Positions 12,851 through 54,222 of a stretch of DNA of 64,000 nt are shown piece by piece. Source of the stretch: Scardovia wiggsiae F0424 (lineage in GTDB: Bacteria; Actinomycetota; Actinomycetes; Actinomycetales; Bifidobacteriaceae). The notes beneath the pieces are model-generated. The model made no database searches and was not told where the DNA came from. It worked only from the letters and a program-made list of their open reading frames with translations. The stretch covers positions 1-64,000 of the forward strand of contig NZ_AKCI01000001.1 in NCBI RefSeq assembly GCF_000269605.1. The letters are read 5' to 3'. The position numbers were made by a program, and so were the translations under genes. Every line of letters begins with the position of its first letter. The first letter of the stretch is position 1.

Positions 12851-13624
12851 ATGGCTAAAAAAGTAGCAATGGTCACAGGCGGTGCCCAGGGGATTGGCGA
12901 AGCTATTGCACGCCGGCTATCGCAGGACGGTTTCGCGGTAGCAGTTGCAGACCTCAACTTTGAAGGCGCCCAGAAGCTCGCAGATGAGCTGAATGCAGAC
13001 GGCGGTGAAGCTGTAGCAGTCAAGCTTGATGTTTCGGATTCGTCAGCGGTTGATGCTGCGGTTGATGAAGTAGCTGAGCGTTTCGGTGATTTTAATGTTA
13101 TCGTCAACAACGCAGGCCTCGCACCGACTACCCCTGTAGGGACAGTTGACCAGGACCTTTTTGACACAGTGATGCATGTTAATGTTGCAGGCACCATGTG
13201 GGGCGTCCAGGCAGCTACGCGCAAGTTCCGTGAGCTTGGGCATGCGGGCAAGATCATCAACGCAACATCACAGGCGGGTGTTGTAGGCAACCCTAACCTC
13301 ATGCTGTACTGCTCAACAAAATTCGCTATCCGCGGTATTACCCAGGTAGCGGCACGCGAGCTGGCTTCCGAAGGCATACTTGTCAATGCATATGCTCCGG
13401 GGATCGTTAAAACACCTATGATGATGGATATTGCACATCAGGTTGCAGTGAATGCCGGGAAGGACGATGAGTGGGGTATGGGCACATTCTCCAAGGATAT
13501 TGCCCTTGGGCGCCTGTCGGAGCCGTCAGACGTGGCAGCAGCCGTGTCGTTCCTCGCCGGGCCTGATTCCGATTATATTACCGGCCAGACCATTGAAGTT
13601 GACGGCGGGATGCAGTTCCACTGA
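12851..13624 (+). CDS. (S)-acetoin-forming diacetyl reductase / 2,3-butanediol dehydrogenase
   Basis: A 257-residue classical SDR predicted to reduce diacetyl to acetoin and acetoin to 2,3-butanediol with NAD(P)H. Motifs: TGGAQGIG (about 9-16), NNAG (about 90-93), catalytic Ser in NATSQAG (about 137-143) and YCSTK (about 153-157). The C-terminal pattern [23 protein letters not shown] followed by IDGGM-type text closely follows BudC/ButA enzymes, which is why this subfamily is chosen over generic SDR. It is monocistronic, with a strong terminator right after. The preceding 284 bases hold no convincing gene. Confidence 0.85.
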
Positions 13625-13680: not shown

Positions 13681-13710
13681 GGCTGCCGGGTTTTGCCCGG
13701 CAGCCTTTTT
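13681..13710 (+). terminator. Terminator of the acetoin reductase gene
   Basis: Perfect stem GGCTGCCGGG / CCCGGCAGCC with a short loop around 13691-13693, followed directly by TTTTT. A classic intrinsic terminator. Confidence 0.92.
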
Positions 13711-13806
13711 ACATGCCGGTGTATTGTATATTTTGCTTTGCACGGCTACAAATATGCGGATATAGCCCGGTGCAGCCCGGTTACGCTGCAGATAGATCTT
13801 CACTGC

Positions 13807-13887
13807 TGGTGGTAAAACATGCAGATATAAAATCAAAATTGTGGAAAACCGCCGCAATGGTTTTTATATCTGCATGTTTTACCACCA
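13807..13887. repeat. Long palindromic element, copy 1
   Basis: A perfect 26-bp inverted repeat: left arm 13807-13832 (begins TGGTGGTAAAACATGCAG), right arm 13862-13887, with a 29-base loop. The arms are nearly identical to those of copy 2 at 54139-54222. The loop is unrelated between copies, apart from a possible weak TTGTGG/CCGCAA extension here. It lies between the acetoin reductase gene and the convergent end of the ppk operon. It is not a conventional terminator, since there is no GC-rich stem plus U-run. Function unknown. Confidence 0.8.
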
Positions 13888-14050
13888 CGGGCCGTGGTGC
13901 GGATAGCCTGCATGGAGTAATAAAGAGGATACCGAGGGCTGAAAGGCGCCTGCATGAAAAAGCCGCTGCCATAATCCGGGGAAAAGAGACTGCAGGCACC
14001 GGAATCAGGGCTGCTGTAAGAATACGATATATGAAACAGAGATATAAAAA

Positions 14051-14134
14051 CGCTGAACTGTGAAAGCGCCTGTCGGCGCGCAGGCCGCTCGCAGCGGCAA
14101 AAAATGAAGCCCGGGGCTTAAACACAGTTCAGCG
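14051..14134. other. Predicted four-way-junction structure
   Basis: A perfect 12-bp closing stem, CGCTGAACTGTG (14051-14062) with CACAGTTCAGCG (14123-14134), encloses three hairpins: GCGCC/GGCGC (14066-14079), GCCGCT/AGCGGC (14084-14098) and AAGCC/GGCTT (14107-14119). On the minus strand the AAGCC hairpin is followed by CATTTTTTG, so part of it could end the leftward ppk operon. The remaining text from 13888 to 14218 holds no recognisable gene. Confidence 0.6.
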
Positions 14135-14218
14135 CGCTATCCATAATACGCTATATCCGCGTCGCTTTTCCTGTGTGTCTTATTTTTGCTCAGCACAGCA
14201 CAGCACGTCATAGGAAAA

Positions 14219-30667: not shown

Positions 30668-31780
<1,113 letters not shown>

Positions 31781-31893
31781 TTTCTGTAGTGGGTAAAACT
31801 ACTGTAGGGATTATGGAGTCTATTTTTTGTAGAAAAAAAGCCCCATAAGACCTATAATGAAAAAGTGACCAAACCCTCATTAGAAAGAATCTT

Positions 31894-52123: not shown

Positions 52124-52137
52124 AATACTGTAGTATT
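52124..52137. promoter_or_regulatory. 14-bp palindrome upstream of htrA
   Basis: AATACTGTAGTATT is a perfect palindrome about 52 bases before the htrA ATG, in an AT-rich stretch that could hold the promoter. It may be an operator, possibly for the adjacent LuxR-type regulator; this is inferred from position alone. Confidence 0.4.
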
Positions 52138-52189
52138 GAGGAAACAGAGACGCTCTACAGGGTACAGTCAATCTGATAAAAGGAGTTTT

Positions 52190-53932
52190 ATGACTGACAG
52201 CAAGGGGAATCCGGCAGCACCTTCGCAGGACGGCCAGCGGTATGGAACGGATGCTGACAATACATACATTCCGCAGGGATATCCACAGTATGGGCAGTCC
52301 CAGCCGCAGTATGCGCATACAGAACAGACTGCGAGGTTCCGGCAGGAGACGCAGCCTTATCAGCAAACCCAGCAGTACCAGTACGGAAATATGGCTCAGA
52401 CACAGCAGCTGTCGCAGCAGCTGTTCAGCGGACAGAATGCCGGGCAGCCGGACAGTCCGCAGCTTTCAGGGGGCCAGCAGCCGGGCCAACCTTATCAGCC
52501 GGCGCAGCAGTACCAGCAGTATCAGGCGCAGCCCGGAGCCGGACAGTTCCCGCCTGTTCCGGGCCAGCTCCAGCAGCCCGCGCACCCGGTGAGCCAGGCG
52601 AACCGGGCAGATACAGCGTCAAATCCTTTTGTCAATCCTGCTGCCGGCCGGGCATCAACTATTTCTGGAGCAGCGCCGTCGCCGGCTGATGCAACGAAAA
52701 GCACAGGACGTACTGTTTTAACTTCTACACTGACTTCACTCCTTATCACACTCGTGGTCCTGGGCCTGGGGTGGCTTGCAGTCTACAGCGGCGTTCTCCC
52801 GATTTCCCGCTCATCGGGGCTGAATCCCTCTACGGGCGGCGGCGGAAGCACGTCTACGCAGATCGGCAGTGCCGGCACAAGTACATGGAAGGCTGTAGCC
52901 AAGAATGTTGCACCCTCCGTTGTTTCCATTACGATCACGACAGGGACTTCCCGGGTTATGGGATCCGGTGTGATCATTGATAAAAAAGGGTATATCGTTA
53001 CAAATAACCATGTGGCGAGCAATAACGGGCAGATGGTCGTTACCATGTCTAACGGCGAAATGTACGGGGCCAGCGTTGTGGGGACTGATCCTACAACAGA
53101 CCTTGCTGTGCTGAAAATCGATAATCCGCCGAGCAACCTCACGGCAGCCAGTTTTGCGAGCTCGTCGAATCTGGCTGTAGGCGAAGATGTTATGGCGATC
53201 GGGAACCCGCTGGGGTATGAGAATACGGCTACAACGGGTGTGGTGTCTGCGCTTAACCGCCCGGTAGTATTATCCGAATCGGGCTCTTCCTCATCGTCAT
53301 CCAATACGGTATTCACTAATGCTGTCCAGATCGATGCGGCGATAAATTCCGGGAACTCAGGCGGGCCGTCATTCAATGCCGAAGGCAAGATAATCGGCAT
53401 CAATACTGCTATAGCATCCACGCGCTCTACTTCCGGTTCCAGCGGCAGCACGGGAAGCATCGGCATTGGATTTGCGATCCCGTCGGATACAGTTAAATGG
53501 GTCACAGAAGATATTATCAAGAACGGGCATGTGCAGCATGTTTCGCTTGGCGTCACAGTACAGACAGATACTGCTAAAACAGGTAATGCCACACGGTCGG
53601 GTGCGGCTGTCAGGGATGTTGCTGCGGGAAGCCCCGCTGAAGCTGCCGGGCTTAAGTCGGGCGATACCATTGTGGGGTACAACGGCAATGTTGTAGGCAG
53701 CATGCAAAGCCTTCTCGGGTATGTCCGTGCTACCCGCATGGGCAGCAGAGTCACTCTTACGGTTATCCGCGATGGGCGTACTACGAATCTCTCGGCCACT
53801 ATGGATCAGGCTGAGAATTCCGGTTCCTCCGAAGGGTCCCAGCCGAATGATGATTCAGATGGGGACAACGGCGGCAATAATGACGGGGGTAATGATGATA
53901 ACAATAATAATGATGATGGGAGCGGCAACTAG
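52190..53932 (+). CDS. htrA: HtrA/DegP-like serine protease with PDZ domain
   Basis: 580 residues from ATG 52190 (AAAGGAG ahead). A Gln/Pro/Tyr-rich cytoplasmic N-terminus (about 1-165), one transmembrane helix (LLITLVVLGLGWLAVYSGVL, about 184-203), then the trypsin-like domain with His in VTNNHVA (near 273), Asp in TTDLAVLKI (near 304) and Ser in NSGNSGGPS (near 387). A PDZ domain covers about 450-545. The C-terminus is a tail of Asn, Asp and Gly. Acts outside the membrane on misfolded proteins. Next to the envelope-stress two-component genes. Confidence 0.92.
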   Translation: MTDSKGNPAAPSQDGQRYGTDADNTYIPQGYPQYGQSQPQYAHTEQTARFRQETQPYQQTQQYQYGNMAQTQQLSQQLFSGQNAGQPDSPQLSGGQQPGQPYQPAQQYQQYQAQPGAGQFPPVPGQLQQPAHPVSQANRADTASNPFVNPAAGRASTISGAAPSPADATKSTGRTVLTSTLTSLLITLVVLGLGWLAVYSGVLPISRSSGLNPSTGGGGSTSTQIGSAGTSTWKAVAKNVAPSVVSITITTGTSRVMGSGVIIDKKGYIVTNNHVASNNGQMVVTMSNGEMYGASVVGTDPTTDLAVLKIDNPPSNLTAASFASSSNLAVGEDVMAIGNPLGYENTATTGVVSALNRPVVLSESGSSSSSSNTVFTNAVQIDAAINSGNSGGPSFNAEGKIIGINTAIASTRSTSGSSGSTGSIGIGFAIPSDTVKWVTEDIIKNGHVQHVSLGVTVQTDTAKTGNATRSGAAVRDVAAGSPAEAAGLKSGDTIVGYNGNVVGSMQSLLGYVRATRMGSRVTLTVIRDGRTTNLSATMDQAENSGSSEGSQPNDDSDGDNGGNNDGGNDDNNNNDDGSGN

Positions 53933-54027: not shown

Positions 54028-54060
54028 TAAAGGGCTGGATGCTAATCATCCAGCCCTTTA
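54028..54060. terminator. Inverted repeat after htrA
   Basis: TAAAGGGCTGGATG (54028-54041) pairs perfectly with CATCCAGCCCTTTA (54047-54060), a 14-bp stem with a 5-base loop. A/T ends on both sides suggest a bidirectional terminator. Confidence 0.8.
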
Positions 54061-54138: not shown

Positions 54139-54222
54139 CTGGTGGTAAAACACGCAGATACAAAATCTGTTTTTGGCGTTTCCCGTAATTCCTATTTTCG
54201 TATCTGCGTGTTTTACCACCAG
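54139..54222. repeat. Long palindromic element, copy 2
   Basis: A perfect 23-bp inverted repeat (left 54139-54161, begins CTGGTGGTAAAACACGCAG; right 54200-54222), extended by four A-T pairs after one mismatch, loop about 27 bases. Arms match copy 1 at 13807-13887 except at two sites, where both arms change together (ATG/CAT to ACG/CGT; TATA to TACA with its partner). It also lies between convergent genes (htrA and the PBP gene). The remaining 54223-54537 shows nothing recognisable. Confidence 0.8.

Follow-up and report, generated by a model that had tools for sequence, protein, structure and literature searches.

An ~84-bp palindromic element is dispersed over the intergenic spacers of the Scardovia wiggsiae genome, with nearly uniform arms and drifting loops, and elements of the same architecture with other arms are found in related genomes. 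At close to an even chance, we take it for a dispersed hairpin of the Bifidobacteriaceae that resembles a REPIN. A trans-acting factor would read its arms, and some copies would have been co-opted as two-way transcription terminators.

Copies in the window and in the S. wiggsiae genome

The window is the whole 64,000-nt stretch that was analysed, and two copies of the element are its top two short-range inverted repeats. Copy 1 is 83 nt long (13806–13888, + in loop orientation) and scores 96.2 bits with covariance model R1, built from the 21 copies of this genome, and 76.1 bits with model R2, built from 42 diverse elements. An inverted-repeat scan places its 26-nt arms, which are 100% complementary, at 13807–13832 (TGGTGGTAAAACATGCAGATATAAAA) and 13862–13887 (both +), around a 29-nt loop (13833–13861, +) carrying the family core TTGTGGAAAACCGCC. 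Copy 2 (54139–54222, − in loop orientation; R1 98.4 bits, R2 74.4 bits) has 27-nt arms of 96% complementarity, placed by the same scan at 54139–54165 and 54196–54222 (+, plus-strand coordinates), and a 30-nt loop (54166–54195, −). The coordinates in an earlier note on this DNA were confirmed, and the palindromes are real, the longest perfect inverted repeat being 26 bp as compared with at most 13 bp in 30 Markov-simulated windows. The two copies fold with −43 to −48 kcal/mol at z of about −11 (RNA folding z-scores of −10 to −12). As that note said, they differ at two arm positions (15 and 23) with both arms altered at each; at a third variable position, pair 24 of copy 2, one arm is altered alone.

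The feature is far from being limited to two copies, as had been thought. A search of the 1,550,817-bp genome with a 20-nt arm pattern, allowing 3 mismatches at most, gives 43 matches, and one with the reversed control gives 0. The 43 matches make up 21 pairs with total lengths of 79–81 bp and one stray match, and the same genome holds two weaker relatives, whose arms differ, at 168,700 and 168,995. Genome-wide at up to 3 mismatches, no lone arm exists except the stray one with 2 mismatches, all others being paired about 60 bp apart. The full element comprises two inverted 27-nt arms around a 29–31-nt loop, and its consensus (alignment A1) reads CTGGTGGTAAAACACGCAGATACAAAA, about 30 nt with the core AATTGTGGAAAACCGCCGAAA, and TTTTGTATCTGCGTGTTTTACCACCAG. 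Copies 1 and 2 had been said to have unrelated loops, but with copy 2 read on the minus strand both match the family loop consensus. When oriented by the loop only, 11 copies are + and 10 are −. Mean pairwise identity among the 21 copies is 97% in the outer arms (21 nt), 94% over all 27 arm positions, and 65% in the loop. About half of these copies have a candidate DnaA box, TGTGGAAAA, in the loop, but relatives show TGGCGGAA there, so the box was taken as a coincidence.

All 21 copies are intergenic, adjoining convergent, parallel, and divergent gene pairs, and their flanking genes share no common function. Loop orientation is linked neither to transcription (6 with and 5 against in parallel pairs) nor to replication direction (10 with and 11 against), removing the replication link that had been suggested; the latter direction was taken from GC skew, which is positive to 452 kb and negative between 712 kb and about 1.4 Mb. 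Because 12 of the 17 gene ends facing a copy carry their own predicted intrinsic terminator ahead of it, the copies mostly lie in the spacer past a terminator. In the window, predicted intrinsic terminators precede copy 1 at 13681–13711 (+; hairpin of −28.4 kcal/mol with a T tract, for an SDR-like gene at 12851–13624) and copy 2 at 54032–54060 (+; hairpin of −17.9 kcal/mol with a T tract, for a trypsin-like protease gene at 52136–53932). The distance from a copy to the stop codon is at least 73 bp in S. wiggsiae except for one copy at 17 bp, and the arms have at most 4 T after the stem.

Incidentally, a single-copy non-coding block of 87 nt lies at 14050–14136 of the window (+ or −), 160 bp from copy 1 and unrelated to the palindrome. 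It is present in 169 of 189 Bifidobacteriaceae genomes (155 of the 161 good ones), with identities of 81–98% among the matches listed. Its predicted fold is a 12-bp closing stem enclosing three hairpins, and the closing stem covaries with 6 of its 12 pairs changed on both sides, a score reached by 0 of 500 shuffles. The block has no match in Rfam 15 even at E 0.5, and as modelled it is a candidate for an unlisted conserved structured RNA. Elsewhere in the window, 31771–31881 (−) matches Rfam RF02822 Srn266 (‘Streptococcus RNA 266’) with 88.2 bits, well above the cut-off, though the host is an actinobacterium.

Pairing and distribution among relatives

Within the genome, covariation is weak. 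One-sided arm changes are commoner than two-sided ones across the 21 copies, and the score of the 5 two-sided cells is reached by 4 of 500 shuffles. Therefore, copies 1 and 2 alone could not have shown covariation. In 11 copies, one-sided changes have not been corrected; almost all of them give G·U, by which the pair is kept. On the loop-defined strand, one-sided transitions at pairs 3–26 give 15 G·U and 1 A·C (9 and 1 as distinct changes), which is modest evidence as the copies share ancestry, but the comparison is not circular because orientation came from the loop alone. This bias is suggestive of one folded strand of the element being read. In the diverse multi-species set of elements, G·U and A·C cells are roughly balanced.

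Further copies exist in relatives. Model R1 matches 20 of 189 family genomes, and almost all of these elements share the ~84-bp architecture but have other arms. A search with R2, of the kind proposed in the earlier note, reveals the architecture in 49 of 189 Bifidobacteriaceae genomes from three genera, and in 0 of 395 other Actinomycetota genomes. Arm sequences are species-specific across these relatives. One genome (G073) has elements with the same arms at total lengths of 72, 84, and 106 bp.

Between species, changes on both sides are seen in 24 of the 27 pairs of alignment A3, where 86.7% of cells are paired (62.3% when shuffled) and the covariation score is 0.649 (0.197 when shuffled, at most 0.14 when slid), although A3 was gathered by a structural model and leans towards pairing. 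Alignment A4 was gathered by synteny instead. The same gene ends were located in 13 Bifidobacterium-like genomes by searches with flanking proteins, and at one of them, locus C, the palindrome is present in 10 genomes as 11 elements (two in G148) with differing arms and mostly recognisable loops. Here 14 of 22 pairs are changed on both sides, and the score is 0.359 as compared with 0.169 when shuffled, reached by 0 of 500 shuffles. Selection on a paired structure, claimed from two copies, is thus supported by sequence comparison between species, and the within-genome part of that claim stays weak.

Searches beyond the family returned nothing alike. Named genomes outside the group give only three single-arm matches, the number expected by chance. 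The element is not matched among viral contigs, plasmids, and phages, and a phage or plasmid origin was rejected on this ground. No Rfam family exceeds its gathering cut-off; the sub-threshold matches are mostly microRNA hairpins, and a microRNA identity was rejected as generic hairpin similarity. No published report of this repeat was found in a literature search, and the earlier statement that no described family matches holds up.

Two other sorts of palindrome were seen in relatives. One region (G154:C2:1631000-1645000, L127) has three more long palindromes of other types, adjoining large secreted-protein-like genes; an example, ACCAACAAGACAATCCCGCTAG, is present twice, about 2.7 kb apart, and their arm sequence is unrelated to the S. 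wiggsiae element family. Another genome (G144; L123, L204) has a near-perfect palindrome, CAAAGTGGTCACTACCGGTGCAAAGTGGTCA, with arms of ~35 bp built of repeated CAAAGTGGTCA units.

Spread, gene ends, and rival explanations

The genes on either side of the copies were located in two congeners (G001 and G002), and the regions were fetched. In the G001 regions, a counterpart is present only for the copy at 89,990 (G001:1455803). It lies within an 856-bp block that is 94.7% identical to G001, whereas most other aligned stretches are typically 70–80% identical, which suggests a recent exchange of this block between species. In G002, the syntenic regions show a palindrome only at the 873,327 site, with G002's own arms and beside a stop codon; two more lie near a gene flanking copy 952,263, where a single flank could be mapped. 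As copies are missing from syntenic sites in the congeners, the element would have spread recently, after the split from them. The intergenic spacers of the congeners have diverged too far for a clean empty site to be aligned.

Loops that differ by 35% show that the copies did not arise in a fresh burst. Thus, intact arms could equally reflect function at each site. This loop divergence is compatible with post-split dispersal followed by drift, because neutral spacers no longer align. While the loops drift, the arms would be held by selection or continuing turnover.

On the REPIN-like reading, the element would have been copied around the genome after the species parted from its congeners, and would have landed in untranscribed spacers between the terminator of one gene and the promoter of the next. 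A trans-acting factor, most likely an element-spreading enzyme acting on one folded strand, would read the folded arms sequence-specifically, keep them uniform within a genome, and let them drift jointly between genomes, with mainly the length of the loop being kept. Where a copy lies at a gene end, its hairpin would double as a two-way terminator, and many copies would have taken over this role in the Bifidobacterium-like clade. The reading draws on the copy number, the arms conserved beside drifting loops, the G·U bias, the recent spread, the species-specific and covarying arms of relatives, their placement at gene ends, and the REPIN precedent. A bolder version is possible but doubtful, namely that the element represents a new class of miniature mobile hairpin restricted to the Bifidobacteriaceae. 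Its spread would be due to an undescribed enzyme that reads the arms and is neither a RAYT nor an IS transposase; the two would co-evolve to give each species its dialect, and the host would reuse copies as terminators.

Most of the elements inspected in the Bifidobacterium-like clade are 2–30 bp from a stop codon, several occupy the entire gap between two convergent stops, and T tracts adjoin several arm types. At loci A/B and E, the palindrome is present in some genomes and an ordinary terminator-like hairpin of 34–43 bp at the same gene end in others. In two relatives, an orthologous block of 1 kb has retained palindromes at either end, so positions there are stable, which counts against the REPIN-like reading. 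Judging from position, hairpins in some relatives apparently serve as transcription stop signals.

These placements and T tracts, together with the ordinary terminators at the same orthologous sites and the compensatory evolution known for intrinsic terminators (PMC5381666), also favor a non-mobile family of unusually long two-way terminators. In that family, the hairpin at the 3′ end would halt RNA polymerase coming from either side, compensatory mutation would keep it, occasional copying between loci would give rise to the likeness, and the S. wiggsiae copies would be back-up terminators or insulators. This is rather unlikely. Most S. wiggsiae gene ends facing a copy (12 of 17) already have a terminator before it, some copies lie between divergent genes, and the short T runs (at most 4) follow the stems; moreover, uniform arms in 21 scattered copies and species-wide arm changes are left unexplained.

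An improbable alternative is a site for a sequence-specific DNA-binding protein with a species-specific dialect, such as a two-fold site, a roadblock, or a nucleoid or replication barrier. It would account for arms uniform within a genome and symmetrically changed between genomes, and for the arm spacing fixed at about 60 bp in S. wiggsiae. However, the spacing varies with the same arms in G073, perfect 27-nt arms far exceed one protein site, the G·U bias points to a folded single strand, and there are no lone arms bar the stray and no link to replication direction. Least likely of all is symmetry kept by mutation, in which template switching at the replication fork corrects imperfect palindromes and changes both arms without function: it would yield both-arm changes like those of copy 1 and agrees with two-sided changes being at most weakly enriched within the genome, but cannot explain arms uniform over 21 loci with loops drifting to 65% identity, nor gene-end placement in relatives, and is opposed by the uncorrected one-sided changes, almost all G·U, in 11 copies.

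Comparison with known systems

Enzymes and tags of known systems were searched for. PF01797 (Y1/RAYT) is absent from the S. wiggsiae genome, both congeners, and the element-rich clade, with E. coli positive as a control, and none of the five Y1 loci retrieved elsewhere in the family contains an element. Reverse transcriptase is absent from 18 of the 20 element-rich genomes, and spread by it was rejected on this ground. None of the 21 copies has GTAG within 8 bp. Over all border offsets tried, the 21 copies give one 3-bp direct repeat, which is the chance level, and no target-site duplication, and an arm scan of the S. wiggsiae genome found no insertion sequence with matching terminal repeats. 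The missing mobilising enzyme, target-site duplication, and clean empty site count against the REPIN-like reading.

The element resembles MITEs such as Correia elements in being short and intergenic, with inverted terminal repeats and tens of copies. It differs in having no target-site duplication and, in S. wiggsiae, no insertion sequence with matching ends; a classic MITE was rejected on the missing duplication and lone arms. DNA uptake sequences are short, occur in very large numbers, and mostly stand alone. Inverted pairs of them acting as terminators in Neisseriaceae (PMC3630211) share species dialects and gene-end locations with the element, which in S. wiggsiae numbers only in the tens and lacks lone arms; an uptake sequence was rejected because there are 21 paired copies and the sole lone arm is the 2-mismatch stray. 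Two-way intrinsic terminators are alike in the relatives' hairpins right after stops between convergent genes and in compensatory evolution, and unlike in that the element is ~84 bp long with a repeated sequence and a large loop, the S. wiggsiae copies lying beyond real terminators.

Some palindromic repeat families are known to have no transposase of their own, namely CGTC-type REPs (PMC3733652), and the element is like them and ‘TIR’ repeats in this respect, although CGTC stems are 8–9 bp with a CGTC tag (PMC3733652). That REP survey mentions no actinobacterial family (PMC3733652).

The closest likeness is to REPINs. In Pseudomonas, their inverted ends do not vary, and the spacer between these keeps its length but is less conserved in sequence; REPINs also form hairpins and show compensatory changes (PMC3116915). 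The element has the same form (outer arms 97%, loop 65%), and shares with REPIN/RAYT systems a long hairpin, dispersal between genes, the presence of several families in one genome, and compensatory changes (PMC3116915, PMC3733652). On the other hand, its arms make one continuous 26–27-bp stem, whereas a REPIN has two separate REP stem-loops with a tag. REPIN/RAYT membership was rejected, as both the Y1/RAYT gene and the GTAG tag next to the arms are absent. We claim that the element works like a REPIN but is not a REPIN. Dispersed palindromes are well studied in Proteobacteria with RAYT, and here a look-alike family exists in Actinomycetota without RAYT. The family makes it possible to ask what holds arms constant inside a genome yet lets them change between species, and its orthologous gene ends, bearing either the hairpin or an ordinary terminator, may offer a direct view of mobile hairpins turning into terminators.
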